Shown piece after piece: positions 12,604 through 41,934 of a DNA stretch of 64,000 bases. Made by a program: the position numbers and the translations under genes. This DNA is from an uncultured Tateyamaria sp. (lineage in GTDB: Bacteria; Pseudomonadota; Alphaproteobacteria; Rhodobacterales; Rhodobacteraceae), in contig NZ_CANNGP010000024.1 of NCBI RefSeq assembly GCF_947504105.1, forward strand, positions 1 through 64,000, given 5' to 3'. Each line of letters opens with the position of its first letter. Position 1 is the first letter of the stretch. The notes under the pieces are model-generated. The model saw only the letters and a program-made list of their open reading frames with translations, ran no database searches and was not told the origin of the DNA.

Positions 12604-14072
12604 GTGCGTCGTTCGATCCGCTTGCGTTGCCGGGTGTAGATGCTGACAGGGTCACCCGTATCATTGGGTTCTGCTTGCGTGGCCGGGTGCCGGGCGCCGA
12701 AGCGCAATGGTGGTGCGTCGACAGTTTGCTCCTCGCTTTCACTGATGCGCCCCAATTCCAGCCGTCCCCAAAGGGCCCCAGCGAGCAGCCATTTGTCCGG
12801 GGTCATACCTGAGTTGGGAATGAGATCGATCAAGCCGGCGGTCAGTGCTAACGCAATGATTGCGCTTTCCATTCCAATCCCGTCACGGCGAGCCCGCCAC
12901 CAGATAAGAATGATGGGAAGGCCCAGCAGCCCAAATTTAGAAAAGTAACCGACCCAACCGCTTTCGGCCATGTCGATGATCCACCCGCCATCAGCCACTG
13001 TATCTTGATCAGTGAGAAACCAGCGGCCATAACCGCCCCAACCAAATAGCGGGCGTTCTTCGACACGCTGCAGCAATAGTTCCTCGAAGTGGAACCGGAA
13101 ACCGAGTGATGCAGCACGGTCCGGATCAATGGACATGGCTTTCGCCAACAACCAGTCCACCGGGACAAGGTGGGCACCCCGGGCAACGGGATAGGACAGC
13201 GCGATCAACCCTATCAGCGCCGCAGCGAAGATTTGCAGCCGCTTTGGTAAGAACAGTACGAGCGGTATGAGTAGAACGGCGATGACCAGCGCCCCGAGGG
13301 ATTTGCTGAAAACCAAAATTACAAAGAGCATGCATCCAGTCACCAGAAATTTGGTGCGTGTCGGTCCCGTATTGAGACGGGCGAGTCCGAACGTTGCGAT
13401 TACGGCGGCTACAAGAAAGATGCTCAGGTAAAGCCCATGGTGCATAAAAACCACCGGGCGATATCCGTCGCCGCGCAAGTGTTGCAGCCAGGAATGCGGA
13501 AAGAAACCGTAGATCATGTTGTTGAGCTGTGGCGACATACGGAGTTCGAACAGGATCAGTGGCGTGTAGATCAGGCTCGCAATGCAAAAGCTCATAAGCA
13601 GAAGGCGATGCATTTTCGGATGAGCCAAGAATTTTCGCGCCAACAGCAAAGGCAGGATCGTGTAGATGGCTGCCAGAATGATGGCCCCCGCATCGTAGAT
13701 GCGCAGGCCTGGTCGGAACTGACCGTTGGAAAAGAAAGCGTCTGGATTCGTCAGGACCGTGAGAATGGGGCCGATAATAAGTACGCTGATCAATCCGATG
13801 ACCAGCATCTGTTTTGGCAGCCACCCCGTCAGAACAGTTATGTCTTTGGTCTGGCGCGCTTGGGCCATTGAGCAAAACAATAAAGCGCATAGAACCGGTA
13901 TTGTCAGCTTGTCCAACGCACCGGCTGCTGGCAGATCGATACCGCCCTGCTCCGGTAAAAACAGATAGCCACCCAGCACACAGAAAATCAGAATGAACGC
14001 TGGTTCACGCCCCCGCGCAGCGACCCAAACGACAAGGGGCCAGCTGAGTAGAGCTGCGACCGGTGGTATCAC
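12600..14072 (-). CDS. Wzy-like O-antigen/exopolysaccharide polymerase
   Basis: This 490-residue protein is made almost entirely of about a dozen hydrophobic segments. A long loop near residues 330-390 contains RVEERPLFGWGGYGRWF, resembling the conserved loop of O-antigen ligase/polymerase (Wzy_C) proteins. It would polymerise lipid-linked repeat units in the periplasm. It is the first gene of a coupled pair with the following glycosyltransferase. Sequence conservation in this class is low, so the call rests on topology, the loop and the EPS setting. Confidence 0.78.
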   Translation of the reverse strand: MIPPVAALLSWPLVVWVAARGREPAFILIFCVLGGYLFLPEQGGIDLPAAGALDKLTIPVLCALLFCSMAQARQTKDITVLTGWLPKQMLVIGLISVLIIGPILTVLTNPDAFFSNGQFRPGLRIYDAGAIILAAIYTILPLLLARKFLAHPKMHRLLLMSFCIASLIYTPLILFELRMSPQLNNMIYGFFPHSWLQHLRGDGYRPVVFMHHGLYLSIFLVAAVIATFGLARLNTGPTRTKFLVTGCMLFVILVFSKSLGALVIAVLLIPLVLFLPKRLQIFAAALIGLIALSYPVARGAHLVPVDWLLAKAMSIDPDRAASLGFRFHFEELLLQRVEERPLFGWGGYGRWFLTDQDTVADGGWIIDMAESGWVGYFSKFGLLGLPIILIWWRARRDGIGMESAIIALALTAGLIDLIPNSGMTPDKWLLAGALWGRLELGRISESEEQTVDAPPLRFGARHPATQAEPNDTGDPVSIYTRQRKRIERRT

Positions 14073-15744: not shown

Positions 15745-15799
15745 ATGGGCTGGAACCCGTTGGCTTTCTTGCACAATCCAAACAGATAGGAGTATTCCA

Positions 15800-17872: not shown

Positions 17873-17905
17873 GTCAAAGATACATGCTTAGGTAGAAATT
17901 ATGAA

Positions 17906-18110: not shown

Positions 18111-21100
18111 ATGAGCCGTTCTGCATCGGATATGTCTGAAACAGATATTGCCATCGTAGGGCTGGCAGCGCACTTGCCGGGCGCTGATGGTGTCGAGGCT
18201 TATTGGGACAACTTGCGCCAGGGCATTGAGTCCATCCGCCACTATGCGCATCATGAACTCATAAATGCAGGTGAAGCGCCGCATTTGATTGAGCGGCCGG
18301 ACTATGTGCCTGCCGCGGCTCCACTCGACAATTTCGAAACCTTTGACGCGGATTTCTTCGGCTTGTCGCCCAAGGAGGCGGCGATCATGGATCCTCAGCA
18401 CCGCCAATTCCTGGAAGTGGCCTGGGAAGCGCTTGAGAATGCTGGTCACCCACCGTCTAAAACCACAGGGCCCATCGGGGTATACGCCGGTTGTGGCATG
18501 GGTAGCTATTTCTATTTCAACATCTGTTCCAACCGCGATCTGGTCGATGATGTTGGTATGTTCCTTCTGCGCCATACTGGCAATGACAAGGATTTCCTGG
18601 CCACGCGTGTCAGCCACATCTTTGACATGACCGGTCCCAGCGTGAACGTGCAGACCGCTTGTTCCACTTCGTTGGTGGCGACGCATTATGCAACACAGGC
18701 CCTGCTGAATGACGACTGCGACATGGCTATCGCAGGTGGAGTCACGATCGAGCTGCCACAGCATCGCGGCTATCTTTACAAGGAGGGTGAGGTTCTGTCT
18801 CCGGACGGCCACTGCCACGCCTTTGACCATCGCGCCCAAGGCACAGTGTTTGGCTCGGGTGCCGGGGCCGTGGTGCTGCGGCGCCTCAGCGACGCCGTGC
18901 GAGACGGTGATCACATTTACGCCGTGATCAAGGGATCTGCGATCAACAATGACGGTGCGGCCAAGGCAGGTTACCTCGCTCCATCGGTGGACGGACAGGC
19001 AGAAGCCATTGCAGAGGCGCACCTCATGTCCGGTGTGACAGCCGATACGATTGACTATGTCGAATGTCACGGCACGGGCACGTATCTGGGCGATCCCATC
19101 GAGGTGGCAGCCCTTACCCAGGCCTTTGAAGAGACCGCAGACGAGGCAGGCTTTTGCCGTATCGGTTCAGTTAAGACAAATATCGGTCACCTTGATACGG
19201 CGGCTGGGGTAGCCAGCCTGATCAAGACATCGCTCTCGCTGTATCACAAGCAGATCCCGCCATCTCTTGGCTATGAGAAGCCCAATCCGGCCATCGACTT
19301 TGAAAACTCTCCGTTCCGGGTCAATGACACGCTGAGCGATTGGATCAGTCACAAGGGCCCACGGCGTGCCGGGGTCAACTCACTTGGGGTCGGTGGCACA
19401 AACGCCCATGTGGTTCTAGAGGAAGCGCCCGAGCGTGCTGCGTCCGAGCCGTCGGATTGGCCATTCCAGATGCTGCTTCTGTCGGCCCGCTCCAAAGCGG
19501 CACTCGATGGCAATGCCGCCAATTTGGCTGCATATCTGCGCACCAATCCCGATAAGGATATGGCCGATGTGGCATGGACACTGAAAGAAGGGCGCCATGC
19601 ATTTGAGCGCCGCCGCGTGGTGGTGGCTGAAACCAATGAAGAGGCGGCTGAGACGCTGCTGGAAGGCGATCCCCGTAAGATTTTCACGCACACCGCGCTG
19701 GATCGCCCCGATACAGTGTTCATGTTCCCCGGCGGTGGGGCGCAATATGCTGGCATGGCGCGTGATCTGTATGAGACCGAGCCGGTCTTTGCCGAATGGA
19801 TGGACAAGGGGCTCGCAGTCCTTGCGCCCAAGCTGGACTACGATATTCGCGCGCTCTGGCTGCCTGAACCGGGGCAGGAGGCCGATGCCGATGCCCGGCT
19901 GACGCGGCCCTCTGTCCAACTTCCGCTGATCATGATCTGTGAGTACGCGCTGGCCCAACTGTGGATGAGCTGGGGGGTTCAACCTGCCGCCTTGGTTGGT
20001 CACTCCATGGGTGAAAACACGGCAGCTTGTGTGGCTGGTGTAATGCGCTTTGAGGATTGCATTGGTCTTGTTCACCTGCGCGGGCGGCTTTTCGACACTG
20101 TCCCTGCCGGTGGTATGCTGTCGGTGGCGCTGCCTGCAGATGCGTTGCGCCCTCTGTTGGGAGATGATCTGGATCTGGGCGCGGTCAATGCGCCCAACCT
20201 GTCGGTCGCCACTGGACCACAAGCGGCGCTTGATGCACTGCAAGACGCGTTGGCGGTCCGCGACGTGGATTGCCAGCGCATTCCGATCGATATCGCCGCT
20301 CACTCGCGCATGTTAGAGCCGATTTTGCAGAAGTTTGGCGACTATCTGCAATCGATCCAGCTCAGCGTCCCGCAGATTCCGTTTACCTCGAACCGTTCGG
20401 GCCAGATGATCACTGATGCCGAAGCCACTGACCCCGACTATTGGGTGGGCCACCTGCGCGGCACCGTACATTTTGTTGATTGTGTGGGTACTCTTGCGGA
20501 CAAAAACCGCATCTTTATCGAGGTGGGCCCGGGCAAGGCATTGTCGTCTCTGGCCGGTCAACACCCGAGTGTCGAGACCAATCAGGTGATTGGCTCGTTG
20601 CGCCACTCTGCCGATACTACATCTGATGATGCCTATTTCATGGCCATGTTGGGCCGTGTTTGGGCCCTTGGTGGTGATATCGACTGGGCTCAAGTGTGGG
20701 GCGAGGCGCGACGGGTCAAGCTGCCGCTGCCAACCTATGCCTTCCAGAGGGCGCCCTACTTCATCGAACCCGCACAACATCAGATCGAAGCGGCTGATAC
20801 CTGGTTGATGCGCAATGATGATCCCGACAGCTGGGGTTGGCGCCCATCTTGGCGTCCCGATTACGCCCCTTGCGATGTAGACGTGACGGGTGACCTGTCT
20901 GATGTGCCATCCCAGCGCTGGTTGGTCTTTGCGGATGAGGCCGGGCTGTGTGATCAGGTCACCGACCAATTGCGTGCGGCCGGCCATCAGATCGTGACCG
21001 TGCGACCAGGCGACACCTTTGCCCGATTGGACGAGGACAGTTACATCTTGTCGCCCGAACGAGGGCGCGACAGTTATGACGCGCTCGTGCGTGATCTGGT

Positions 21101-24100
21101 TGCCCGCGCTTTTCTGCCTGACCGGGTGCTGCATGGTTGGCTGGCAACCACCCGCGAAAGTTTCCGCCCGGGGTCGAGCTTTTTCCATCGCAATCTCGAA
21201 CAGGGCTTTTTCAGCCTTCTGTTCCTCGCCCAAGCCATGGGTGACGAAGGGTGGGCACAGCCGATACACATGGATGTGTTGAGCTCGGGCGCCGTGCAGG
21301 TGTTGGATGAGGCGCTTAGCCATCCCGAAAAGGCAACGCTGAGCGGGCCGGCCCGGGTCATGCCACGGGAATTCCCGCAGATCACCGTGGCGACGCTTGA
21401 TTTGGACCTGCCTCGGGCGAAGGGGCGGGCGTCGGCCGATATTCAGCCCTTTGTCGTGCCCGTGCTGGAAGAGATCCTGTCGCCCGCCAACAACCGCAGT
21501 GCGGCTGTGCGTGGGGATAAACGCTATGCGATGTCCTGGCGTCCGCAACCTCTGGCCACGCGCGAGGCTGGTTTGGACCGGCTGAAGAAGGGCGGCGTTG
21601 TTCTAGTGACAGGCGGGTTCGGTGGGATCGGTTTGACCTTGGCTCGCCAACTGATCGAAAGCGTGGGAGCACGCATTGTACTTGTATCGCGTGGCGGGCT
21701 GCCGCCGCGTGATGATTGGGACAAGGTGCTGGCCAACACCGCACCAGGGGATGCACTGCCCCGCCGGATCCGCGCTGTTCAAGAACTTGAGGCTGCTGGG
21801 GGTGAAGTGCTGTGCCTGGCGTCAGATGTCTCGAATGTCGAGGATATGACTGCATTGCGGGCCGAGATCGAGACGCGGATGGGACCGGTTTCGGGCATCA
21901 TCCATGCTGCGGGTGTGATTGAAGACGGGTTGATCCAGACCAAGACTATGACCGAAGTGGAAGATGTTTTTGCCCCCAAATTGCATGGCACACGGGTGAT
22001 CGAAGAGGTTTTTCCCGATGGCGAAATCGACTGGCTGGTACTGTTTTCCTCCAGCTCTACCGCTACGGCGCCGGCGGGTCAGGTGGACTATGTCGCGGCG
22101 AACGAATACCTCAACGCCTATGCCAAGTCGCGCACGGGCGACAAGACGCGTGTGCAGGCCATTGGCTGGGGCATTTGGGCCGATACCGGCATGGCCGCCG
22201 ATGCAATGGTCGCCCGCATCGGGGCAGGGGCCGGGGCGCCAGTACTGCCAGCTGATGTGCCGCTTCTGGATCTAAAAACCTTTGATCGTGCGGGTCACCG
22301 CATTTTTACCGCCGACTACACCGTTGCCGACCGCTGGGTGTTGAACGATCACCGAACCGGGGCAGGGGATGCGCTGATGCCAGGTACGGGCTATCTGGAT
22401 CTCGCCGCTCAGGCGCTGCGGGCGCAGGGCGAAACGGCAGCATTTGAAATCCGGGACCTGTATTTCTTGCGCCCACTTGCCGTGGGCGACGCGGAAGCAC
22501 GCGCGATTACATTGCGCTTGCCGCGCAGTGATACCGGTTATGACATGACTGTTGAGAGCGGGCCCGAAGGTGCGTTGGAAATGAATGCGCAGGCGCATCT
22601 GTCACTCCTGCCCATGCGGATCCCTGCGCCGCTAGACCTTGCTGCCATTGCTGCCCGCTGCACCACTCCGGTGCGTGCGCCCGAAGGCGGTGCGCTCAAG
22701 GGCGCACAAGAGGCACATCTGCAATTTGGCGACCGCTGGCGCGTGCTGCAATCCACGGCACTTGGAACAAGGGAAGGGTTGGCCGAATTGGCGTTGCCAC
22801 CTGTTGCAACAGATGATCCTGCCGCAGGTTATCGGTTGCATCCGGGTCTTATGGACTTGGCCACGGGCTGGGCCATGGATTTGATCGAGGGATATGACCC
22901 GATGGCCTACCTCTGGGTTCCGGTGTCTTATCGGTCGGTCAAGGTCTTTCGCGACCTGCCTGATCGGATATTGTCGTGGGTGCGCAGCTCCGGTGACAAT
23001 AAAGCCACGGGCGAGATCGCCAATTTTGACGTGACACTTGTCACGCCCGAGGGCGAGGTCTGTGTGGAGATCCGCGGGTTCTCCATCCGGCGGATGGAAA
23101 CCAGCGTGGGTTTTGCGGCGACCGAAGATGCGCCTGCCGCGACCAGCGGGGCGGACGTGATCCAACCGCTCTCGCCCGCCGAGGAACGGCTGCGCCACAA
23201 TGTTGGTCAGGGTATTCGGGCCGAGGAAGGGGCGGCGCTGTTCCTGCGAGCCCTCGCGCTTAATTCACCCCAAGTGGTTCTGTCATCGCTCGACATTCCG
23301 GGGTTGATCGAGCAGGCTGGCCAGATCCAAGACGGTAGTTCGAGCAGCGGGCAAACCTTTGAACGGCCCCAGCTCGACAGCGAATACGTCGAGCCGGAAG
23401 GGGCTATTGAGACCACTCTTGCAGGCTTCTGGGCCGAGCTTCTGGGCGTTGATCAGATTGGGGCCGAAGACAGCTTCTTTGATTTGGGTGGCCACTCGCT
23501 GATCGCGGTTCGACTTTTTGCCAAGATCCGAAAAACCTACTCCGTGGACTTCCCGATATCGGTCCTGTTCGAGGCGCCAACTATCCGCAAGGTGGCCGCG
23601 CTGATTGCCGAGCGGGGCGGTGTCTCTGAAGAGAACGAGACCGGCAGTGATGCAGCTGTTGACGCCGAGAAACGGCCAGCACGTCGCTTTACCCATCTTG
23701 TGCCGATGCATTCCGGCGAAGGGGGGCCGCGCCTGCCGTTCTTCCTTGTGGCGGGCATGTTCGGCAATGTCCTCAACCTGCGCCACCTCGCGCATTTGCT
23801 GGGCTCGGACAGACCGTTTTACGGGCTGCAAGCGCGCGGTCTTTACGGTGACGAAGAACCCCACCGTACCATCGAAGAGGCCGCCACCGATTACATCGCT
23901 GAAATGCGGCAAGTGCAGGAAAAGGGCCCTTATATGTTGGGTGGTTTCTCGGGGGGTGGAATTACCGCCTTTGAAATCGCCCGGCAGCTTGAGGCGCTAG
24001 GCGAAGAGATCATCTCGGTTGTTCTGCTAGACACTCCGCTGCCCGTACGTCCACCTTTGTCGCGGCGCGACCGGGTGATGCTCAACTGGCTCAACCTCAA

Positions 24101-24554
24101 GGACGACGGGGTGTCCTATGTCTCCACTTGGGCCAAGAACCGCATTGCCTGGGAATTGCAGAAGCGCCGAGGCAGCGGGGATGATGCCGCCGAAGAGGGT
24201 CAGCAGTTTCACGACGCAGCGATCGAAGCGGCGTTCCTGGAAAGCGTCGGTAAATATCAGGTGACCCCATGGGACGGGCCGCTGACCTTGTTCCGCCCGC
24301 CGCTGATGGCGCGGTGGGAGGTGGCTCCGGGGCGGCTGGTGGACAAGGATCGCCACTACATGTTCCCCGACAATGATTGGACGCGCTTCGTGCCCGGTCT
24401 TGTTATTCACGAGGTGCCGGGCGATCACGACTCCATGGTTCTTGAGCCGAACGTGCGGGTTTTGGCCGCGCGTATGAAAAAGGTGCTCGAGGCGGCTGAA
24501 ACGGCGTGGGCTACCGCGCCAACCCCGCCGAATTTCCGGGAGGCGGCGGAATGA
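18111..24554 (+). CDS. Type I polyketide synthase, KS-AT-KR-DH-ACP-TE
   Basis: This single-module megasynthase has about 2147 residues. The ketosynthase (8-430) has Cys184, His320 and His360. The acyltransferase (535-850) has GHSMGE with Ser632; the position of the usual HAFH specificity motif reads IAAH, so the extender unit cannot be read. The ketoreductase (1160-1370) has TGGFGGIG and Tyr1327. The dehydratase (1395-1690) has His1414 in DHRTGAGDALMP and Asp1582 in HPGLMD. The ACP has Ser1796 (DLGGHSL) and the thioesterase has Ser1947 (GGFSGGG) and His2106. KR lies before DH, opposite to the common modular order. ATG 18111 follows GGCAGGTGG; a TTG at 18090 is weaker. The next gene overlaps as ATGA. 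Confidence 0.95.
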   Translation: MSRSASDMSETDIAIVGLAAHLPGADGVEAYWDNLRQGIESIRHYAHHELINAGEAPHLIERPDYVPAAAPLDNFETFDADFFGLSPKEAAIMDPQHRQFLEVAWEALENAGHPPSKTTGPIGVYAGCGMGSYFYFNICSNRDLVDDVGMFLLRHTGNDKDFLATRVSHIFDMTGPSVNVQTACSTSLVATHYATQALLNDDCDMAIAGGVTIELPQHRGYLYKEGEVLSPDGHCHAFDHRAQGTVFGSGAGAVVLRRLSDAVRDGDHIYAVIKGSAINNDGAAKAGYLAPSVDGQAEAIAEAHLMSGVTADTIDYVECHGTGTYLGDPIEVAALTQAFEETADEAGFCRIGSVKTNIGHLDTAAGVASLIKTSLSLYHKQIPPSLGYEKPNPAIDFENSPFRVNDTLSDWISHKGPRRAGVNSLGVGGTNAHVVLEEAPERAASEPSDWPFQMLLLSARSKAALDGNAANLAAYLRTNPDKDMADVAWTLKEGRHAFERRRVVVAETNEEAAETLLEGDPRKIFTHTALDRPDTVFMFPGGGAQYAGMARDLYETEPVFAEWMDKGLAVLAPKLDYDIRALWLPEPGQEADADARLTRPSVQLPLIMICEYALAQLWMSWGVQPAALVGHSMGENTAACVAGVMRFEDCIGLVHLRGRLFDTVPAGGMLSVALPADALRPLLGDDLDLGAVNAPNLSVATGPQAALDALQDALAVRDVDCQRIPIDIAAHSRMLEPILQKFGDYLQSIQLSVPQIPFTSNRSGQMITDAEATDPDYWVGHLRGTVHFVDCVGTLADKNRIFIEVGPGKALSSLAGQHPSVETNQVIGSLRHSADTTSDDAYFMAMLGRVWALGGDIDWAQVWGEARRVKLPLPTYAFQRAPYFIEPAQHQIEAADTWLMRNDDPDSWGWRPSWRPDYAPCDVDVTGDLSDVPSQRWLVFADEAGLCDQVTDQLRAAGHQIVTVRPGDTFARLDEDSYILSPERGRDSYDALVRDLVARAFLPDRVLHGWLATTRESFRPGSSFFHRNLEQGFFSLLFLAQAMGDEGWAQPIHMDVLSSGAVQVLDEALSHPEKATLSGPARVMPREFPQITVATLDLDLPRAKGRASADIQPFVVPVLEEILSPANNRSAAVRGDKRYAMSWRPQPLATREAGLDRLKKGGVVLVTGGFGGIGLTLARQLIESVGARIVLVSRGGLPPRDDWDKVLANTAPGDALPRRIRAVQELEAAGGEVLCLASDVSNVEDMTALRAEIETRMGPVSGIIHAAGVIEDGLIQTKTMTEVEDVFAPKLHGTRVIEEVFPDGEIDWLVLFSSSSTATAPAGQVDYVAANEYLNAYAKSRTGDKTRVQAIGWGIWADTGMAADAMVARIGAGAGAPVLPADVPLLDLKTFDRAGHRIFTADYTVADRWVLNDHRTGAGDALMPGTGYLDLAAQALRAQGETAAFEIRDLYFLRPLAVGDAEARAITLRLPRSDTGYDMTVESGPEGALEMNAQAHLSLLPMRIPAPLDLAAIAARCTTPVRAPEGGALKGAQEAHLQFGDRWRVLQSTALGTREGLAELALPPVATDDPAAGYRLHPGLMDLATGWAMDLIEGYDPMAYLWVPVSYRSVKVFRDLPDRILSWVRSSGDNKATGEIANFDVTLVTPEGEVCVEIRGFSIRRMETSVGFAATEDAPAATSGADVIQPLSPAEERLRHNVGQGIRAEEGAALFLRALALNSPQVVLSSLDIPGLIEQAGQIQDGSSSSGQTFERPQLDSEYVEPEGAIETTLAGFWAELLGVDQIGAEDSFFDLGGHSLIAVRLFAKIRKTYSVDFPISVLFEAPTIRKVAALIAERGGVSEENETGSDAAVDAEKRPARRFTHLVPMHSGEGGPRLPFFLVAGMFGNVLNLRHLAHLLGSDRPFYGLQARGLYGDEEPHRTIEEAATDYIAEMRQVQEKGPYMLGGFSGGGITAFEIARQLEALGEEIISVVLLDTPLPVRPPLSRRDRVMLNWLNLKDDGVSYVSTWAKNRIAWELQKRRGSGDDAAEEGQQFHDAAIEAAFLESVGKYQVTPWDGPLTLFRPPLMARWEVAPGRLVDKDRHYMFPDNDWTRFVPGLVIHEVPGDHDSMVLEPNVRVLAARMKKVLEAAETAWATAPTPPNFREAAE

Positions 24555-25558
24555 GTGTGCCTGAGCCGACGGTCCTGACAGTCCTGCTGAACTACAAGAC
24601 CGCTGATATGACGTTAAAGGCTGCCGAAGCCGCGCTGGCGGCCATGACAGGGATCGCCGGCGGACTAGTGATTGTCGACAACGACAGCCAGGATGGCTCG
24701 TTCGAGACGCTTTCGGCAAACGTTTCGAACCAGGACTGGGACGCCGAGGGTAGGGTGCGTGTGATCCAGTCGGGCAGCAATGGCGGTTTTGGCGCTGGCA
24801 ACAACGTAGGCATCCGAGCTCGCCTCGCGGACGGAGCTGCGCCGGACTACGTCTACATCCTCAATTCTGATGCTTTCCCCGCCTCAGATGCCATTCGGGT
24901 GCTGTTGGAACATCTGGAAGCCATGCCGAAGGTCGGATTTGCAGGTAGCTACATCCATGGGCCCGAGGGCGACACACACCTGACCAGCTTTCGTTTTCCC
25001 TCTATCGCCAGCGAGTTAGAAGGATCGATCCGGTTTGGCCCAGTTTCCAGGCTTCTAAAGAACTACAAAGTCCCCATTGAAACCCCGACGGAAACCCGGA
25101 CCGTTGACTGGCTGGCAGGGGCGTCGATGATGATGCGTCAATCGGTACTGGATCAGATTGGACTTTTTGACGAAACCTTCTTTCTCTATTTCGAAGAAAC
25201 CGACCTGTGCTTGCGGGCTGCCCGCGCGGGGCACGCCACCAACTACGTGCCCATCAGCAAAGTTGCGCATATCGGATCAGCTTCCACCGGTATGAAAACC
25301 TGGCAGCGCGTGCCTGACTATTGGTATGACAGCCGTTGGTATTACTTCTCCAAAAATCACGGACGGGTTTATGCGGCGTCGTCCACGCTATTGCATTTGG
25401 TCGGTGGAGCACTGCATTGGTTGCGCTGCAAGGCGACAGGCAAGGCGTGTTCTATTGCGCCCGGGTTTCTGACCACGATGCTCCGCCATGATCTGCGGGC
25501 GCTTTTTGCAGCGTCCGCACCAGCACGCATTCCAACCATGTCACAGTCTCAAGCATAA
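24551..25558 (+). CDS. Family 2 (rhamnosyltransferase-like) glycosyltransferase in the PKS-NRPS operon
   Basis: The 335-residue GT2 has LTVLLNYKTADMTLKAAEA, the LVIVDNDSQDGS motif, SNGGFGAGNNVGIR and YVYILNSDAFP as metal site. DWLAGASMMMRQSVLDQIGLFDETFFLYFEETDLCLR follows the pattern of WcaA/rhamnosyltransferase-like enzymes. The ATG overlaps the PKS stop (ATGA) and is preceded by GGGAGG, so it is coupled to the PKS. The NRPS starts 14 bases downstream. This placement suggests that it glycosylates the product of the assembly line or uses it as an acceptor or donor component, which is inference. Confidence 0.88.
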   Translation: MSVPEPTVLTVLLNYKTADMTLKAAEAALAAMTGIAGGLVIVDNDSQDGSFETLSANVSNQDWDAEGRVRVIQSGSNGGFGAGNNVGIRARLADGAAPDYVYILNSDAFPASDAIRVLLEHLEAMPKVGFAGSYIHGPEGDTHLTSFRFPSIASELEGSIRFGPVSRLLKNYKVPIETPTETRTVDWLAGASMMMRQSVLDQIGLFDETFFLYFEETDLCLRAARAGHATNYVPISKVAHIGSASTGMKTWQRVPDYWYDSRWYYFSKNHGRVYAASSTLLHLVGGALHWLRCKATGKACSIAPGFLTTMLRHDLRALFAASAPARIPTMSQSQA

Positions 25559-25572
25559 GGTTCGGTACGGTT

Positions 25573-28500
25573 ATGTCTCAGTTCTCTGCGGTCCTGATTG
25601 GTCACGAAAGCCTTGTCATCCAATGCGGAGAGCTTCTGCGCACTGAAGGACACCGCATTGCGGCTATTGTCACACGCAATGCGGATGTGCGGGCCTGGGC
25701 GGCCGATGCGGCGGTGCCTGTACTGGAACCCGGCGTTGGTCTGGCCGCCCATCTTGAGGGGCAGGCGTTTGATTGGCTGCTGTCCATTGCCAATCTCGAC
25801 ATCATCCCCGATGCGGTTTTGGCCTTGCCGAAACGCGGCGCGGTCAACTTCCACGACGGCCCGCTGCCGAAGTATGCAGGACTTAATGCCCCGGTCTGGG
25901 CGGCCCTTGCCGGAGAAACGACGCATGGCATTTCCTGGCATTTAATCGAAGGTGGCGTGGATGAGGGTGATGTGCTGGCCCGCGCCTCTATCACCATCAC
26001 ACCTGAAGACACCGCGCTGACGTTGAACACGAAATGCTATGGAGCGGCGATCGAGAGCTTTCCGGCGTTGATGGCCGAACTGGCCAAGCCCGCGCCCAAT
26101 CGGCAGTCGCAGGATCTGAGCCAGCGCAGTTATTTTGCACGAGATGCACGCCCGTTGCCGATGCTGGACTTTACCCAACCCGCCGAAGTGTTGGTGCGCT
26201 TTATTCGAGCTCTGGATCATGGCGAGTATTGGAACCCGCTGACCTTGCCCTGCTTTGACGCTGGCGGCCAGCGATGGCTGGCCCGGACCGCACTGGTGTC
26301 GAACAGTGCCTCGGGCGCTGCGCCGGGTACGGTTGTGGTCGCGGACAACGATCAGCTGGTCGTGGCCACAGGGCAGGGTGATCTAGGGCTGACCCGGATC
26401 ACCGACACTCAAGGCCGTACCGTGCGCCCGGATACACTCGCCAGCAAAGGCACCTTGTTGCGTAGCCCTGCGGAGGCGGAAAAGGACGCACTGGAGACAG
26501 ATTTAGCAGCCTTGGCCAAGACTGATCCTGCATGGCGCAAAATCCTTGAGGACATGGCACCGCCAGACCTGCCCTTGATTTCCGCAGCCACAGAGCCTGC
26601 GCAGGTGCTGGCCCGTCCGGTCGCCGTGCCCACCGACATCACTCCTGATCAGATAAGGGCCGGTTTCGCCCTGATGATGGCCCGGATGACTGAAGATGCC
26701 TGTGTAGATCTGGCACTTGCCCTTCCGGGTCTCTCCCATGCTGCTGACTGGGTGCCGGTGCAGGCCGTACTGAGCGACAGTATTGCCCAGATGAGCGATG
26801 CGCTCGCTGCCGATATTGCCGCTGCAAAAGCTCGAGGGTCATTTGCAGCGGACCTGATCGCGCGCCTTCCTGGCAGTGATCCGGCCTTGCCGGTCGTGGC
26901 GCTGTCCGATGATATTGAAGCTGGGTTGGTTGGTCCCACTGCCCTGACCCTTGCAGTCACGCCGGACGGTACAACGCTTTTTGCGGACGCTACCCGCATG
27001 CCAGTCGAAGTGATCGATCTCTATGTCGCAAGACTGGCCCATGTGTTGGACAAGCTTGGCAGCAGTGATGACGCCCATGCCCTGCCGATCCTTTCACCTG
27101 CGGAACGTGAACTGACGCTCAAGACCTGGAACGAAACGGCCACCGACTACGACCCAGCTCAATGTGTGCATCAGGCGTTTGAAGCGCAGGTGGGACACAC
27201 GCCTGCAGCCGAAGCGCTTGCCTTTGAGGGGCACAGCCTGACCTACGATGCGCTCAATACCGCAGCCAACCGGCTGGCACACAAATTGATCGCATTGGGT
27301 GTCAAACCTGGTGTGATCGTTGGGTTGCATCTGCCCCGTTCGGCCGAGCTGGTGATCGCAGCCCTGGCGATCATGAAAGCGGGCGGCGCTTACCTGCCTA
27401 TGGATCCCGCCTTTCCCACTGACCGTATCGCGCTTTATGTCGAGGATAGCGAAGCCGGTTTGGTCATAACCAATGCTGAACTGGCAACGGCCCTGCCGGA
27501 AAGCGGCACACAGATATTCGACGTCGCCACGAGTGTGGCGGATCAACCTGATACAAACCCGGCAAGTGGGGTCAGCGGGGTGGATCTGGCCTACATGATC
27601 TACACCTCCGGCTCGACCGGGCGGCCCAAGGGCGTGATGGTAGAGCATCGCAACGTGGCCAATTTCTTTGTCGGCATGGACGACCGTATCGATCACGAGG
27701 CTGGCGGTGTCTGGCTGGCGGTGACCTCACTATCCTTCGACATTTCGGTGCTTGAGCTGTACTGGACATTGGCACGTGGCTTCAAACTTGTACTCTCGGG
27801 TGATGAAAACCGGGTGCTTGTGGCCGGAGAAGAGGTTGGTGCAGGCGCGGTGCCCGGGGGTATGGAGTTCAGCCTCTACTACTGGGGCAATGACGACGGA
27901 AAGGGGCGTGACAAATACCGTTCCCTCCTGGAAGGCGCGAAATTTGCCGACGAAAACGGCTTTGTCGCAGTCTGGACGCCCGAACGGCATTTCCACGCTT
28001 TTGGCGGCCCCTATCCTAATCCGTCTGTGACCGGTGCAGCAGTGGCCGGTATGACCCGCAATATCGGGGTGCGTGCAGGTTCGTGCGTCGCGCCGTTGCA
28101 CCATACCGCCCGCATCGCCGAGGAGTGGGCGGTGATCGACAACCTGACCAATGGGCGCGCCGGGCTGGCTATTGCCAGCGGCTGGCAGCCTGATGATTTT
28201 GTGTTGCGCCCAGAAAACACACCGCCTGAAAATAAGCCCGCCATGTTTCGCCAGATTGAAGACTTGCGCAAACTCTGGGCCGGTACGCCGGTGTCTTTCC
28301 CGCGCAAGGACGGGCAGATGCATGAAGTGGTCACACAGCCCCGCCCGATCTCTGACACGCCGGATTTGTGGGTCACGACCGCAGGCAATCCTGAGACTTG
28401 GAAAGAGGCTGGGCGCAATGGGTGTCACGTACTGACCCATCTCTTGGGGCAATCGGTGGACGAGGTTGGTAAAAAGATCAAACTCTATCACGGAGCCCTA

Positions 28501-30219
28501 CGCGAGGCGGGCTACGACCCGGCGCAGTTCAAGGTGACGCTAATGCTGCACACCTTCCTTGCCGCTACCCGGGATCAAGCCCGTGAGATCGCGCGCGAAC
28601 CGATGAAGGACTACCTGCGCTCAGCCGCCGGTTTGATCAAGCAATATGCCTGGGCCTTCCCGGCCTTCAGGAAACCCGAAGGGGTGGACAATGCGTTCCA
28701 GCTGGACCTCGGTTCACTGACTGACGACGAGTTGGAGGGCATTCTGGACTTCGCCTTCGAGCGTTATTTCAACGACAGTGGTCTTTTTGGTACCGTCGAA
28801 GACGCGCTGGCGCGGGTGGAGCAGGTCAAGGGCATCGGGGTTACCGAAGTGGCTTGTCTGATTGACTACGGGATCAATGTGGACACGTTGTTGGACGGGT
28901 TGACCCCGCTCGCGGAGGTTGTGCGCCACGCAAATGCAGATACCGCGCCGGCAGCAGATGACTTCTCGATCGCGGCTCAGATCGCGCGCCACCACGTTAC
29001 CCATCTGCAATGCACTCCCTCCATGGCGCGCATGCTGGTGATGAACGACGCAGCCAGCGCGGCGCTACGCCCGATCAAGTATATGATGCTGGGGGGTGAG
29101 GCGCTGCCTGGTGCATTGGTGCGCGATCTGAATGCGCTCACCGGTGCGCATATTGAAAATATGTACGGTCCCACGGAAACCACGATCTGGTCGACGACCG
29201 GTCCCGCGTCCGCGGACGCGGGTGTGGTGGGCATTGGCTCGCCGATTGCCAACACGCAGGTCTATATCCTTGATGGTGCTATGCAGCCACAGCCCATCGG
29301 TGTTGCAGGTGAGTTGTATATCGGTGGAGACGGCGTGACCCGCGGGTATTGGCAGCGTCCCGAGCTTACCGTAGAACGCTTTGTCCATGATCCATTCCGT
29401 ACCGATGTCGAAGCGCGGCTATATCGCACCGGCGATCTGGCGTGCTGGCTGCCAAACGGTGAACTGGATTTCCTCGGTCGGGCCGACTTTCAGGTCAAGC
29501 TGCGTGGATACCGGATTGAGTTGGGCGAAATCGAGACAGCCATCGACGCGCTCGACGATGTGCGTCAGTCTGTCGTGCTGGTGCGTGAAGATGTTCCCGG
29601 TGTGCAGCAGCTGGTCGCGTATCTGTTGACAGACGGGGCGGTGACCGAACCGGCGTTCAAGGCAGCATTGGCTGATGTGCTGCCTGCCCACATGATCCCG
29701 AACCGCTTTGTGACTCTGGATGCTTTCCCCCTGACGCCCAACAAGAAAGTCGACCGCAAGGCCTTGCCTGCACCGGGCGCACCTGCCCGCGCCGCGGCAG
29801 CATCCGTTCCGGCGCCTCAAGGCAATTCGCATGCCGCTACTTCAGACGCAGGAACCGGCTTCGACGGTGATGTCACAGAAGCAATTGCGGGGATCTGGGG
29901 TGCGATCCTCGGGTTGGTGGATATCACTGCGCGGGATAATTTCTTTGATCTCGGCGGGCATTCGATCTTGGCGGTCCAGGCGCACCGGGAAATCAAGGTA
30001 CAGCTGGGGGTGACGAAACTGTCGATTACCGACATCTTCCGCTTCCCCGTTCTTGGGGATTTGGCGCAAGCGGTCGAAGCCAAGTTAGGGCCTACCCAAT
30101 CTGCGCCTGCTGTAGCCTCGGCACAGGTTACCGTTCCTGCAGCGGAACCTCCGACGGGGCGCGCCGACGCTACGGCGCAAAGGCGTGCAATGCGCGCGCG
30201 CCGGCGTCAGGGCAGATGA
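25573..30219 (+). CDS. NRPS: formyltransferase - C remnant - A (with inserted luciferase-like monooxygenase) - PCP
   Basis: This assembly-line enzyme has 1548 residues. Residues 1-300 form a methionyl-tRNA-formyltransferase-like domain with Asn92, His94 (NFHDGPLPKYAG) and Asp130. Residues about 340-510 keep only the end of a condensation domain, without HHxxxDG. The adenylation domain starts near 535, with YTSGSTGRPKG at 677 and FDIS, is interrupted at 764-1113 by a MupA/Atu3671-type FMN monooxygenase, and resumes to MYGPTE, YRTGDL and NKKVDR. The carrier domain has Ser1464 (DLGGHSI). There is no release domain. It would load an amino acid, formylate or otherwise acylate it, oxidise it and pass it to the PKS. 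Confidence 0.93.
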   Translation: MSQFSAVLIGHESLVIQCGELLRTEGHRIAAIVTRNADVRAWAADAAVPVLEPGVGLAAHLEGQAFDWLLSIANLDIIPDAVLALPKRGAVNFHDGPLPKYAGLNAPVWAALAGETTHGISWHLIEGGVDEGDVLARASITITPEDTALTLNTKCYGAAIESFPALMAELAKPAPNRQSQDLSQRSYFARDARPLPMLDFTQPAEVLVRFIRALDHGEYWNPLTLPCFDAGGQRWLARTALVSNSASGAAPGTVVVADNDQLVVATGQGDLGLTRITDTQGRTVRPDTLASKGTLLRSPAEAEKDALETDLAALAKTDPAWRKILEDMAPPDLPLISAATEPAQVLARPVAVPTDITPDQIRAGFALMMARMTEDACVDLALALPGLSHAADWVPVQAVLSDSIAQMSDALAADIAAAKARGSFAADLIARLPGSDPALPVVALSDDIEAGLVGPTALTLAVTPDGTTLFADATRMPVEVIDLYVARLAHVLDKLGSSDDAHALPILSPAERELTLKTWNETATDYDPAQCVHQAFEAQVGHTPAAEALAFEGHSLTYDALNTAANRLAHKLIALGVKPGVIVGLHLPRSAELVIAALAIMKAGGAYLPMDPAFPTDRIALYVEDSEAGLVITNAELATALPESGTQIFDVATSVADQPDTNPASGVSGVDLAYMIYTSGSTGRPKGVMVEHRNVANFFVGMDDRIDHEAGGVWLAVTSLSFDISVLELYWTLARGFKLVLSGDENRVLVAGEEVGAGAVPGGMEFSLYYWGNDDGKGRDKYRSLLEGAKFADENGFVAVWTPERHFHAFGGPYPNPSVTGAAVAGMTRNIGVRAGSCVAPLHHTARIAEEWAVIDNLTNGRAGLAIASGWQPDDFVLRPENTPPENKPAMFRQIEDLRKLWAGTPVSFPRKDGQMHEVVTQPRPISDTPDLWVTTAGNPETWKEAGRNGCHVLTHLLGQSVDEVGKKIKLYHGALREAGYDPAQFKVTLMLHTFLAATRDQAREIAREPMKDYLRSAAGLIKQYAWAFPAFRKPEGVDNAFQLDLGSLTDDELEGILDFAFERYFNDSGLFGTVEDALARVEQVKGIGVTEVACLIDYGINVDTLLDGLTPLAEVVRHANADTAPAADDFSIAAQIARHHVTHLQCTPSMARMLVMNDAASAALRPIKYMMLGGEALPGALVRDLNALTGAHIENMYGPTETTIWSTTGPASADAGVVGIGSPIANTQVYILDGAMQPQPIGVAGELYIGGDGVTRGYWQRPELTVERFVHDPFRTDVEARLYRTGDLACWLPNGELDFLGRADFQVKLRGYRIELGEIETAIDALDDVRQSVVLVREDVPGVQQLVAYLLTDGAVTEPAFKAALADVLPAHMIPNRFVTLDAFPLTPNKKVDRKALPAPGAPARAAAASVPAPQGNSHAATSDAGTGFDGDVTEAIAGIWGAILGLVDITARDNFFDLGGHSILAVQAHREIKVQLGVTKLSITDIFRFPVLGDLAQAVEAKLGPTQSAPAVASAQVTVPAAEPPTGRADATAQRRAMRARRRQGR

Positions 30220-30857
30220 CCCATTTCGAAGTGTTGCGCCAGCAAGTGCAGGTGCATTTGAGCCGCGGCGTGGGTGTTGGTGTGGCGAATCCAAGGGCCT
30301 CGGCCACCGGCCTTTATCCCGCCGAAGAAACTGCCACCCTCCGTATGGTCGACAAACGCTTGCGCGAATTTTGCGCCGGGCGCCTTGCCGCGCGGCAGGC
30401 GATGGAGGCCATTGACCTGCCGCTGGCACCCGTGCCGATGGGTCCGGACCGTTCGCCATGCTGGCCTGAGGGTGTCTTGGGATCGATCACCCATTGTGAA
30501 TGCGCTGCTTTGGCTGTGACCGCGAGGGCCGATACCGTTCGCGCCCTCGGAATTGATCTGGAAGAGGCTGAACCGTTGGAGCGGGATCTTTGGGACACGG
30601 TTCTGACCACAGCCGAGCGGGAACGGACCAGCGACGGCCTAACCGCTAAGTACATCTTCTGTGCGAAAGAGGCGGTCTACAAAGCACAGTTTCCAATGAC
30701 CGGGCAACAGCTGGGCTTTGATGATGTGGAGGTCACGTTGCAAGGTGCGCAATTCACAGCCAGCATTCCAGATGCAAAAGGTACTTGGTCTGGTGTGATT
30801 TCAAATGCTTCGGTCCTATCTAGGAACTTGATTATCAGCATTGTGACTTTGCACTAA
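30216..30857 (+). CDS. 4'-phosphopantetheinyl transferase
   Basis: The 213-residue EntD/Sfp-type protein transfers phosphopantetheine from CoA to carrier-domain serines. Visible motifs are GSITHCE (about 89-95), Asp114 and Glu116 in GIDLEEAE (metal binding), and KEAVYKA (Lys151, Glu152, Lys156). The ATG overlaps the NRPS stop as ATGA. Direct coupling to the NRPS marks it as the dedicated activator of the two carrier domains in this operon, Ser1796 of the PKS and Ser1464 of the NRPS. Confidence 0.93.
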   Translation: MTHFEVLRQQVQVHLSRGVGVGVANPRASATGLYPAEETATLRMVDKRLREFCAGRLAARQAMEAIDLPLAPVPMGPDRSPCWPEGVLGSITHCECAALAVTARADTVRALGIDLEEAEPLERDLWDTVLTTAERERTSDGLTAKYIFCAKEAVYKAQFPMTGQQLGFDDVEVTLQGAQFTASIPDAKGTWSGVISNASVLSRNLIISIVTLH

Positions 30858-30868
30858 GGATTTTTTCC

Positions 30869-31810
30869 ATGCACAAACGTCTGTTGCGCAAATCTACGGC
30901 TTCCTTATTTCTGCTGCTTTCGGCCTGCGGTTTGGTCAGTCGTTGCGGCACACCGGACCCGGTAGACGAGGCGACGTTCAGTGCCCTCTACACCAAACCA
31001 GCCGATCTACCGGACGCACCGCTCAAAGTTTATCATCTTGGTCACAGCTTGGTTGGTCCCTACATGCCCGTGATGCTGAAACAGCTTGCTGGTGAGGGCC
31101 ATGGTTTCAACAGCCAGCTGGGGTGGGGATCTCCTCTTGAGCAGCATTGGGAACCGGATGTGCCGATCAATGGCTTTGACGAATCCAATGGACCACCGGC
31201 CTACCGCGACGCAAAGGAAGCGATGGTATCGGGTGAGTATGACGCGGTTGTTCTGACCGAGGCCGTCGAAATTCGCGATACGATCAAATACCATGATCCG
31301 CATGACTACCTGCGCAAATGGGCGGCAGCGGCTTGGAACGGAAATCCGGACGCTCGCGTCTATCTTTATGAAACCTGGCATAACCTCGATGATTCCGAAG
31401 GCTGGTTAAACCGGCTCGACCTTGATCTAGAGCGCTATTGGGAGCGTGAAATCTTGAAACGCGCTCAAGCCTACGGGGAGATCGATAAACCGATCTACGT
31501 CATTCCGGCAGGTCAGGTGATGGCAGCCTTTGTGCGCAAGGTAGAGGCCGCCGGTGGAATCGGCCCGATCCAGGATCGTGCTGACCTTTTTGACGATACG
31601 ATTCACTTTAGTCACTACGGCGGGTACCTGGTGGCGTTGACCCATTACGCCGTGCTTTATGGACGCTCGCCTGTTGGCCTGCCACACCAGATGCAATTGG
31701 CCGACGGCAGCCCAGCGGATGATCCTGGGCCAGATGCGGCGCGGGCGATGCAGGAAACGGTTTGGGAGGTTGTGACGTCCTATCCACCCAGCGGCGTAAA
31801 ACAGAACTGA
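30869..31810 (+). CDS. SGNH/GDSL-like lipoprotein
   Basis: The 313-residue protein starts with a lipoprotein signal peptide ending LLLSAC (lipid-modified Cys20). The mature part has LGHS with candidate nucleophile Ser60 and, near the C-terminus, D243-T-I-H246, the DxxH block of SGNH hydrolases. It would be anchored in the outer membrane facing the periplasm or outside. It starts 11 bases after the PPTase with AAGGA upstream, so it is the last gene of the PKS-NRPS operon. A role as esterase acting on the operon's product or on acylated EPS is plausible. Its stop is one base from the convergent prsT-like gene. Confidence 0.72.
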   Translation: MHKRLLRKSTASLFLLLSACGLVSRCGTPDPVDEATFSALYTKPADLPDAPLKVYHLGHSLVGPYMPVMLKQLAGEGHGFNSQLGWGSPLEQHWEPDVPINGFDESNGPPAYRDAKEAMVSGEYDAVVLTEAVEIRDTIKYHDPHDYLRKWAAAAWNGNPDARVYLYETWHNLDDSEGWLNRLDLDLERYWEREILKRAQAYGEIDKPIYVIPAGQVMAAFVRKVEAAGGIGPIQDRADLFDDTIHFSHYGGYLVALTHYAVLYGRSPVGLPHQMQLADGSPADDPGPDAARAMQETVWEVVTSYPPSGVKQN

Positions 31811-34395: not shown

Positions 34396-35076
34396 TCAGT
34401 GCCCAGTCGCGTTGATCACCACAGACACAGTCTTGGCCAGAATGTTCACGTCGGTGCCGAATGAAACCGAGCTTGCGTACTGGTCGTCGTATTGAGCTCT
34501 GTCAGCAAAGTCGCAGTTGTTGCGGTCAGAAATCTGCCAGAAGCCAGTGATGCCCGGACGAAGCCAGTAGTATGCCACTCCAGGGTACTGTGCTTTCTGG
34601 CACACCATCATGGGCCGGGGTCCAATAAGGGACATCGACCCGACGAGCACATTCCAAAGCTGCGGCAACTCATCAAGAGATGTCTTGCGCAGAATGCGCC
34701 CAACCTTGGTGATCCGGGGGTCGTTTTTCAGCTTTTGCGTACTATCCCACTCAGCGCGCGCGGCAGGGTTTGCCGCAAGGTAGCTTTCCAGGCGGGCGTC
34801 GGCGTCGGCCGTCATAGTGCGAATTTTCCAGATGCGGAACGTGCGCCCATTCCGTCCAACACGCAGTTGCGAATAGAACGGTTTACCACCGTCCAACGCC
34901 ACAAGCGCCGCCATCGAAAGAACGATGGCGATGATGATGGGTGCTGATGCGATAACCAAGAAAAGGTCCAGGGAGCGCTTCACATAGGAATGGTAGAAGC
35001 CGCCTACGCGAAAGTTGCTGCGCCCCCTGAGATAAACTGAAATTTCATTATGAAAATCGTGTGACTGAATAGTCAT
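34396..35076 (-). CDS. Initiating polyprenyl-phosphate sugar transferase
   Basis: The 226-residue protein has one N-terminal membrane segment ([18 protein letters not shown]) followed by the bacterial sugar transferase core: [44 protein letters not shown] and [10 protein letters not shown]. It places the first sugar-1-phosphate on undecaprenyl phosphate, starting the EPS repeat unit on the cytoplasmic membrane. It is the short WbaP/PglC-type form without extra membrane helices. ATG 35076 is preceded by GGAAGG. The 35077-35555 region upstream probably holds its promoter. Confidence 0.92.
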
Positions 35077-35555
35077 TACAAAACACCTTCCGGCTAAGCC
35101 AAGAAAAGGACCAGCCAATAAAAAAGTTACACTACACTACTTATAAAATTCGATATTCTACGCGACGGGAGCAGATGTGCCGCCACGTCACCTGTTTACC
35201 ATTTGTTAACCCGGCGCCAAAGGAAATTAAGCGCGAATCCGCCCAAAGGCGTGATAAACTTCAAAAAGATTTTGCTCCCGATCTGGAATTCTCAACCGAA
35301 GATAGAGTGAGCACATCTATTTCGGGAAATTTATACAAAATTTTTTCTAACGTCCAGCATATCAAGAGAATCGGTTGAGACTTGGACATCATCCTTTTTG
35401 GTACGACGACCTGCACAGTGGTTCGTCTTCGATGTTGGGATCTGCATCACTCAGTGATATTTTGCCGATCAAACCAACATGTCGGTTGTAACGGCGTCAT
35501 CTTGCCGATAGGCCTATCGATACATTTTTTACACGTATCAAGGTGGGTATGCATC
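35077..35555. other. AT-rich divergent intergenic region
   Basis: The region between the sugar transferase and the rightward glycosyltransferase is clearly richer in A and T than its surroundings. I see no gene. The open frame from 35382 to 35555 continues into the next gene but lacks similarity. Divergent promoters are expected here. Confidence 0.5.
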
Positions 35556-41100: not shown

Positions 41101-41934
41101 TTAATTGATGTCATTGGCGGATAGTGCGCTCCGGCGACACCCGTTTAGTGCAACACCCAAGACATTGGTATTCGCGGCAACTTCGGTTTCGCAGCGGTCC
41201 AACAGGCGAAAGCGGGTCTGCTCGGCGCGCGCAACAATCAGCGCGCAATCAACATGCTTCAGAAAAGCCAGGGCCTTGTCCGATGACAGTGCAGAAGGCA
41301 GGTCAAAGATCATGATATCAGGGGCAAAATTCTGTTGCATCTCGTTCAGAAAGCCAACTGTTCGGTCCATCATCAGATAGCGTGTGGGGTCCCGTTCAGG
41401 GTGAGGCGAGACGGAAACTGCTACGTTGTCGGTCACGCGGACGGCTTGTTTGGCAAACTCAACGTTCCCGATAATTACTTCTGGCAGGCCATAGCGGATC
41501 TTGAGATCAAAAAACGTGTGGACTGAGGGTGATCCAAGATCGAAGTCGAAAAGCATCGAGCGCATGCTCGATTGCCGAGCCAAACCCAGCGCGAGATTGC
41601 ATGCAAGGGTTGTCTTGCCACTGTTGGGTTCGGGCGAGGTGATGGCAAGCCGGGTCCAGCCGTTCTGCTGCATCTGCAGTACGATCTTGGTGCGCAAAAT
41701 ATCAAAAGGCGTGGCGTCGGTGGTCGCCTCACGCGATACGATCCGATGGCGGCGCAGCACGGCCGGTGCCAGATCCACGCGCTGCAATGCATCCCATGCT
41801 GGTGTGGGGCCGTCCGGAGCAGGGGTCTTGGGCGTTTGCAGTCGCCGGGGTGTGACCGGGGTAGCAGTTGCCGAAAGACTGGTCTCTTGACGGGTGATGC
41901 GAGCCTTGGCGAGGGCTGCCTGAAGCTTTTCCAT
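41101..41934 (-). CDS. CpsD/Wzc-type P-loop ATPase of EPS synthesis
   Basis: The 277-residue cytoplasmic ATPase has Walker A TSPEPNSGKTTLACNLA, a Walker A' of DFDLGSPS and IMIFDLPSAL (Walker B), the layout of bacterial tyrosine kinases. The C-terminus (NGCRRSALSANDIN) has no tyrosine cluster, so autophosphorylation in the usual way is doubtful. It lies 27 bases downstream of the chain-length gene, giving a Wzc split into two proteins. It would regulate polymer length through contact with that partner. Confidence 0.87.
   Translation of the reverse strand: MEKLQAALAKARITRQETSLSATATPVTPRRLQTPKTPAPDGPTPAWDALQRVDLAPAVLRRHRIVSREATTDATPFDILRTKIVLQMQQNGWTRLAITSPEPNSGKTTLACNLALGLARQSSMRSMLFDFDLGSPSVHTFFDLKIRYGLPEVIIGNVEFAKQAVRVTDNVAVSVSPHPERDPTRYLMMDRTVGFLNEMQQNFAPDIMIFDLPSALSSDKALAFLKHVDCALIVARAEQTRFRLLDRCETEVAANTNVLGVALNGCRRSALSANDIN

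Follow-up and report, generated by a model that had tools for sequence, protein, structure and literature searches.

A five-gene PKS-NRPS operon

We analyzed a 64,000-nucleotide stretch from an uncultured Tateyamaria sp. of the Rhodobacteraceae (contig NZ_CANNGP010000024.1, positions 1 to 64,000; hereafter, the window). Its plus strand carries a five-gene operon, with all five genes present, in which a type I polyketide synthase (PKS) and a nonribosomal peptide synthetase (NRPS) are encoded in a region rich in exopolysaccharide (EPS) genes. The first gene (18111..24554, with an ATG start at 18111) encodes the PKS, with the Pfam domain order ketosynthase-acyltransferase-ketoreductase-dehydratase-acyl carrier protein-thioesterase (KS-AT-KR-DH-ACP-TE). 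It is followed by a family 2 glycosyltransferase (GT; 24551..25558, ATG at 24551, assigned by Pfam), which is translationally coupled to the PKS, by an NRPS initiation module (25573..30219; Pfam, TIGR04020 over its cut-off and PDB sequence matches), by an Sfp-type 4'-phosphopantetheinyl transferase (PPTase; 30216..30857, Pfam), and by a fifth gene (30869..31810), whose product is probably exported and shows SGNH-hydrolase-like motifs in aligned homologues.

The initial annotation had described these genes as coupled by ATGA overlaps or short gaps. Indeed, the PKS stop and the GT start form an ATGA overlap, as do the NRPS and the PPTase, and the remaining gaps are 14 bases (GT-NRPS) and 11 bases (PPTase-fifth gene). 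We compared this layout across 88 loci, comprising the window, plasmid loci L007-L012 and L014, and 80 named loci, in which genes were counted by protein search. The PKS and GT were adjacent on one strand in 83 pairs, with a median gap of -1, corresponding to the ATGA overlap; the same median was found for GT-NRPS and NRPS-PPTase, with gaps counted from the last sense codon and open reading frames started at the first in-frame start, which biases them towards overlap. Gaps of at most 50 bases were found in 81/83 PKS-GT, 82/83 GT-NRPS, and 75/76 NRPS-PPTase pairs. This coupling is not chance. The NRPS and PKS distances were also correlated over 80 loci (r 0.898, with L014 omitted; 0/999 permutations as high), a correlation to which shared descent contributes.

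A GT homologue was found in 85/89 loci, although in some Hyphomicrobiales loci the matching GT is a separate one; for the GT, the rhamnosyltransferase and MftF models match only far below their cut-offs. Besides the operon PPTase, the genome of the uncultured Tateyamaria has a single PF01648 match, in a 143-aa frame on another contig.

Domains and active sites of the two synthases

Pfam placed the PKS domains at 18141-19418 (KS), 19716-20618 (AT), 21594-22184 (KR), 22260-23099 (DH), 23418-23606 (ACP), and about 23757-24449 (TE), in agreement with the earlier description of a PKS with KS at its start and TE at its end; no enoylreductase domain was detected by Pfam in this protein. The active-site residues are identical in all 81 full-length PKSs: KS C191/H327/H367, AT S639/H738, KR Y1334/N1338, DH H1421/D1589, ACP S1803, and TE S1954/D1981/H2113. 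In the KR, columns 1321 and 1323 are Ser in 81/81 sequences, column 1322 varies between S, T, and C, and column 1320 is S or A. The AT motif places checked, GHSMG and IAAH, fit neither textbook specificity pattern. No second long type I KS frame occurs in the PKS's own genome, where PF00109 has five further matches, all in frames of 395-430 aa.

The NRPS consists of a formyltransferase (FT, 25573-26436), a condensation (C) domain remnant (about 26470-27162), the N part of an adenylation (A) domain (27178-27810), an FMN luciferase-like monooxygenase (MOX, 27868-28920), the C part of the A domain (28951-29748), and a peptidyl carrier protein (PCP, 29881-30075). The MOX is therefore inserted in the A domain, between A4 and A5. 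No C, TE, or reductase domain was found in the NRPS by Pfam at E 0.001, PF00668 (condensation) had no match across the whole genome, and no HHxxxD motif occurs in the spacer separating the FT from the A domain. The view that the NRPS lacks a release domain and a functional condensation domain is thus confirmed. The domain calls of the initial annotation also stand; what they overlooked is the position of the MOX inside the A domain and the glycine-type code.

The A-domain code of the window, read at the standard positions, is DILQMGMIWK and predicts glycine. Among the 89 NRPSs compared, 54 carry this code, 21 carry DILQLGMIWK, 10 DILQFGMIWK, and 2 DILQLGMVWK, and one sequence each has A or Y in the fifth position; the Lys of the code is present in 89/89. 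The exact DILQLGMIWK, from which the window differs in having M instead of L in the fifth position, was reported for all four MOX-carrying glycine domains surveyed in PMC12283262.

Residues N92, H94, and D130 of the FT and the Ser of the PCP are each present in 88/89 NRPSs (one gap each). Together with the lack of an upstream C domain, these residues give the protein the features of an FT-A-PCP initiation module, and the glycine-type A domain, interrupted by the MOX at A4/A5, makes it a MOX-bearing glycine module of the myxothiazol type. The closest solved relative of the MOX is PuwE (6ket, E 2e-95), and LgrA is the best PDB match of both A-domain parts. For the FT, the nearest solved relative is Met-tRNA formyltransferase; ArnA also scores above the FT of LgrA, which matches lower down. 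The conservation of the PKS and NRPS active-site residues fits an active enzyme set.

The fifth protein

The fifth protein had initially been labelled a lipoprotein. The window protein has a lipobox-like LSAC; many homologues have no such motif in an alignment judged by eye. The SGNH-type motifs had gone unnoticed. These are GHSL (G58 H59 S60 L61) near the start and D243-x-I-H246 near the end, and their residues do not vary among 25 aligned homologues, some as distant as 24% identity. The signature of SGNH hydrolases comprises a Ser in block I and Asp-x-x-His in block V; the fifth protein has both elements, in GHSL and D-x-I-H, respectively. No Pfam family matched the protein at 0.001, DUF4886 matching weakly 9/22 family members (best 0.0006; window member 0.037), and no solved structure gave a sequence match better than E 0.36. 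The fifth protein is probably exported and, on its motifs, an SGNH-like candidate. Homologues of its gene were found in 36/89 loci, window included.

A neighbor cluster designated c10 lies near the cassette in 37/88 loci, and two full c10 sequences (L064 18398-20962 and L065 18367-20982) contain a similar GHSLFG...DDIH region. Both are large proteins with a long C-terminal part that has no Pfam match, and three members of the cluster gave no Pfam family. Where a c10 gene stands directly 3' of the fifth gene, the gap is at most 50 bases in 14/14 such pairs.

Linkage of the cassette to EPS genes

We next consider the genes around the cassette. From 55 matches in the family, 35 in which the cassette lies more than 320 kb into the contig were kept. 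For each of these, seven EPS markers were sought in the 20 kb around the NRPS and, as a control, in a 20-kb segment drawn at random from the same contig, with coordinates smaller by 100 kb or more. One or more markers were present in 31/35 cassette regions and in 1/35 random regions (Fisher P 4e-14), and at least two in 25/35 and 0/35, respectively. Four markers were significant singly, namely Wzz (23 vs 0), BYk (17 vs 1), Wzx (13 vs 0), and Wzy (11 vs 0). The cassette is physically linked to Wzx/Wzy-type EPS genes beyond chance. The earlier proposal that the operon belongs with EPS genes is borne out by this comparison, in many genera, and by the distant versions described below.

Clustering of the neighbors in the 88 loci gave the same picture, with Wzz in 48 loci, Wzx in 46, a Wzy-like protein in 40, the kinase in 33, and WecG in 29. 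A frequent gene order is c10-gt4-gtA-Wzx-PKS-GT-NRPS-PPTase-Wzz-kinase; among the labelled adjacent pairs, Wzx stands directly 5' of the PKS in 27, and the PPTase directly 5' of Wzz in 24.

In the window, the minus strand encodes an EPS glycosyltransferase of family 2 (11632..12603; cluster in 38/88 loci) and a protein resembling Wzy and O-antigen ligases (12600..14072; PF04932 at E 3e-6, below cut-off). Further minus-strand EPS genes encode an initiating sugar-phosphate transferase (34396..35118; PF02397), the Wzx-type flippase (37714..39066; PF13440), a tyrosine-kinase-like protein (41101..41934; PF01656 over cut-off, EPS kinase models below theirs), the Wzz-type chain-length determinant (41962..43500; PF02706), and a WecG/TagA/CpsF glycosyltransferase (53475..54278; TIGR00696 over cut-off). 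A Wza-like export protein is encoded on the plus strand (56672..57301; TIGR03027 at E 7.5e-28, below the equivalog cut-off); near the cassette elsewhere, this gene is rare (4/88 loci). Several EPS genes between 31812 and 45850 match XrtA/PEP-CTERM-type models (PrsT, chain length, ATPase, amidotransferase), all below cut-offs, and the exosortase in the vicinity is of the XrtD type. At 49563-50693 lies a sugar aminotransferase-like protein (DesI/PseC models below cut-offs), an amino sugar being a possible acyl acceptor.

Just 5' of the operon, at 14443-17872, two plus-strand genes encode proteins of 433 and 690 aa without a Pfam or NCBIfam match. In the interval between them and the operon, at 17905-17932, a hairpin (GGTCCACTG-GAAA-CAGTGGGCC) followed by TTTT looks terminator-like by eye; it is absent from the list of a terminator scan, and the scan for promoters and terminators gave no more sites than shuffled sequences. 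The RepB and RepA genes at 343-2537 indicate a repABC replicon; elsewhere, the NRPS is also found on multi-megabase contigs.

Distribution and distant versions

Among 394 genomes of the same family, sampled as a rule at one genome per genus, an NRPS match was found in 152 at E 1e-100, and in 145 after the removal of seven weak ones (E between 1e-100 and 1e-120). In a class-wide sample, 8/385 genomes matched at E 1e-150: five from the same family, the window's own genome included, and three from other families, one match being partial. Among the best loci (at least 80) of a scan of named genomes, 79 titles were of Rhodobacterales type and one was Hydrogenophaga pseudoflava (L024), assignment being made from the names; the latter is a betaproteobacterium. 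Its cassette, with 56% NRPS identity and an SGNH-like gene nearby, may have arrived by horizontal transfer, unless the record is mislabelled or contaminated.

Divergently transcribed PKS and NRPS genes with Wzx and other EPS genes nearby were found in Aminobacter (L010), Shinella (L012 and L170), Neorhizobium (L013), and Rhizobium (L166). The Methylobacterium version (L167) has its NRPS directly 5' of a KS-AT-KR-DH-ACP-TE PKS, and a 785-aa protein encoded downstream has a Wzz match just below cut-off; this version is weakly associated with polysaccharide genes. A Deinococcus plasmid (L168, 14785-26770) encodes a separate formyltransferase, an A(MOX)-PCP protein, and, directly 3' of the NRPS gene, a PKS of the order KS-AT-KR-DH-ACP that has no TE and ends in a condensation-family domain. 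These genes lie among genes annotated or matched as capsule or polysaccharide genes. The condensation-family ending would fit transfer to an acceptor; its motif, HHLAADALSW, resembles epimerization domains as much as condensation domains.

An exosortase neighbor judged to lie outside the system

The VPLPA-CTERM exosortase XrtD is encoded in the window on the minus strand (7603..9207; TIGR04152 over cut-off), and the initial annotation had tied the operon to it. This link did not hold. XrtD occurs in 93/394 family genomes, and both XrtD and the NRPS in 22, the NRPS alone in 123, XrtD alone in 71, and neither in 178; co-occurrence is thus below expectation (odds ratio 0.45, P 0.003, uncorrected for phylogeny). 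On this negative association, we reject a coupling to the exosortase; the window is among the fewer sites where both meet. Within the flanks of the 88 loci, the xrtD cluster was found in 3 only (the window, L007, and L014). The pairing in the window is not unique, as a 52-kb plasmid of Tateyamaria omphalii also has XrtD near a region that shares 76% identity with the PKS. XrtD and the cassette behave as if they marked alternative surface types.

Comparison with known systems

The FT-A-PCP start module is shared with LgrA of linear gramicidin synthesis, which is not known to have a monooxygenase or a PKS partner; the FT of the cassette differs in scoring higher to Met-tRNA formyltransferase and ArnA. 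The AlmEFG system transfers carrier-protein-activated glycine to lipid A and so likewise uses carrier-activated glycine for a cell-surface glycan, but is not known to involve formylation, oxidation, or ketide extension. The MOX-module proteins of myxothiazol and melithiazol synthesis are named MtaG and MelG. In these synthetases, the MOX lies between a4 and a5 and acts on the alpha carbon of glycine, the peptide being released as an amide while a glyoxyl thioester remains (PMC10204066). The cassette shares this arrangement, its glycine A domain being split at A4/A5 by a flavin monooxygenase, with a code one residue off in the window. There, however, the upstream chain is cleaved as an amide and the rest is hydrolyzed, whereas here the module comes first, an FT is present, and a PKS follows. 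The solanimycin module SolF likewise contains a flavin monooxygenase within a glycine NRPS module and retains alpha-hydroxyglycine, but its insertion lies between A8 and A9 and its product is a free antifungal (PMC10204066). RkpA and WcbR are, like the cassette PKS, type I PKSs encoded in polysaccharide loci, and the available text mentions no NRPS partner for them (PMC3908369); rkp clusters are also described in PMC7902896.

Each element is known already: glycine modules with a MOX, start modules with an FT, and capsule clusters with PKS genes. In the literature searched, which left subscription journals mostly outside, we found no account of an NRPS-PKS cassette within EPS loci, which is not proof of novelty. 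In related bacteria, clusters of the type I PKS and of the NRPS or NRPS-like kinds (PMC11225332, PMC10221251, PMC12735020, PMC5940937) and a PKS cluster (PMC5064897) are reported in the available text without a product or an EPS link; the available portions of PMC12016528 and PMC4359443 contain nothing on the cassette.

A proposed pathway to an acylated repeat unit

With moderate confidence, we propose from domain content and gene context that the PKS and NRPS form a two-protein line, running from NRPS to PKS, that would be dedicated to supplying the EPS repeat unit with a short acyl group derived from glycine. The order of the two proteins is suggested by the lack of a C domain in the NRPS, the KS at the start of the PKS, and the position of the NRPS before the PKS in the Methylobacterium and Deinococcus versions. 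A single PKS module points to one extension, with iteration possible. This agrees with the route drawn in the initial annotation, in which the NRPS would load and modify an amino acid, the PKS extend it, and the TE release it; the glycosylation of the product by the GT that the annotation also suggested is conceivable.

In this pathway, the PPTase would arm both carrier domains, and the A domain would load glycine onto the PCP. The FT would then N-formylate the PCP-bound glycine, and the inserted FMN-dependent MOX would hydroxylate its alpha carbon. The resulting carbinolamide may be retained, or the amide, here formamide, may be lost as in myxothiazol synthesis to leave a glyoxylyl thioester. 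The PKS would add one C2 unit, assumed to be malonyl-derived, and then reduce and dehydrate it to give a four-carbon enoyl thioester. The TE would then pass the group on, the likeliest acceptor being a sugar or an amino sugar within the EPS repeat unit, perhaps one placed by the coupled GT; this acyl transfer would precede Wzx flipping and polymerization. Trimming or relocation of the group outside the cell may fall to the SGNH-like protein. The predicted product is a formamido-hydroxy-butenoyl group, or a formyl-acryloyl group if the carbinolamide collapses. The gene content, the coupling, the conserved active sites, the glycine-type code, and the EPS linkage are observed; from these we infer the reaction outcomes, the number of extensions, the acceptor, and the attachment.

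A further-reaching version is that assembly-line-decorated EPS constitutes a widespread undescribed class with a reactive four-carbon substituent. In its boldest form, the formyl group would be sacrificial, formamide would be shed, and the glyoxylyl starter would lead to an aldehyde-bearing enoyl group on a sugar, allowing the matrix to be cross-linked; we regard this version as speculative and rather unlikely.

Weighing the alternatives

Several observations weigh against a dedicated role in EPS acylation. In the control comparison, three markers did not reach significance singly (WecG, 4 vs 0; sugar transferase, 4 vs 0; Wza, 1 vs 0), and 4/35 cassette regions (L144, L151, L157, and L164) were free of markers. 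Among loci L007-L094, 83 of 88 have a marker and L014, L016, L017, L053, and L086 have none. The marker queries were drawn from the window and from cassette neighborhoods, which favors the test set, although the control shows such genes to be rare elsewhere. Thioesterases more often hydrolyze or cyclize than acylate sugars, and the presence of EPS and metabolite genes on one accessory replicon need not mean a common product. In Aliiroseovarius (L014, 18004-31743), the NRPS is followed by a KS-AT-KR-DH-ACP-C-A-PCP-TE protein without any EPS marker, so that related parts can serve elsewhere; a Streptomyces plasmid (L169) carries an A-MOX module whose surroundings have no annotated polysaccharide genes. 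Both cases argue against a universal EPS role. The Aliiroseovarius version lies near xrtD and a VPLPA-CTERM protein.

The Aliiroseovarius and Streptomyces cases also agree with the strongest alternative, in which the cassette yields a free diffusible metabolite, such as a signal, an antibiotic, or a protectant, that is merely co-located or co-regulated with EPS, for example for life on surfaces. NRPS/PKS lines bearing a TE normally release free products, and genome papers class such clusters as secondary metabolism (PMC4062626). However, linkage to EPS genes is seen repeatedly, in two orders of the Alphaproteobacteria and on one plasmid of Deinococcus, and no transporter, resistance, or regulator gene was recognized among the 19 neighbor clusters present in at least 10/88 loci (c10 being without a Pfam family), a check that covered only these common clusters. 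We consider a free metabolite unlikely.

The product of the PKS might instead be lipid-like and serve to carry or anchor the polysaccharide, like that of RkpA in rhizobia; the NRPS would then provide the starter for an iterative PKS. The wcbR/rkpA genes inside capsule clusters (PMC3908369) offer a precedent, and the window PKS is likewise mono-modular. Yet without an enoylreductase domain it would not give a saturated chain, it terminates in a TE, and the Wzx/Wzy-type genes of the window and of many loci, together with the initiating sugar-phosphate transferase of the window, imply a polyprenol carrier; this explanation seems improbable to us. A siderophore-like, metal-binding metabolite, suggested by TIGR04020, whose name-giving protein Atu3671 belongs to a siderophore cluster, is very improbable, as the predicted product is very small and no TonB receptor or siderophore transporter was recognized in the clusters common to at least 10 loci.

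Implications for Phaeobacter and the family

If the proposed acylation of the EPS repeat unit is correct, it may bear on Phaeobacter inhibens. Two Phaeobacter-titled loci (L065 and L092) carry the cassette. Listed secondary metabolism genes of P. inhibens include the PKS gene Inhi_1972 and NRPS genes, among them Inhi_1974, and, in strain DSM 17395, PGA1_c04930 and PGA1_c05350 (PMC4062626); these PKS and NRPS genes may be those of the cassette. In an EPS study of this species, the chromosomal exoY is given as PGA1_c05320 in one place and as PGA1_c05260 in the primer table, and the authors state that they detected no genes linked to sugar modification near the two EPS clusters of the species (PMC10984933). 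The words "polyketide" and "NRPS" do not occur in the main text of that article. The assembly line is a candidate for these missed modification genes, provided that the cassette adjoins the EPS genes there.

More broadly, over one-third of the sampled genomes (145/394) of this largely marine family carry the NRPS, with its genes beside the surface-coat machinery. If true, an EPS-acylating assembly line would tie assembly-line enzymology to polysaccharide structure, and it would offer a direct chemical test for a type of cluster that genome papers have reported without a product.

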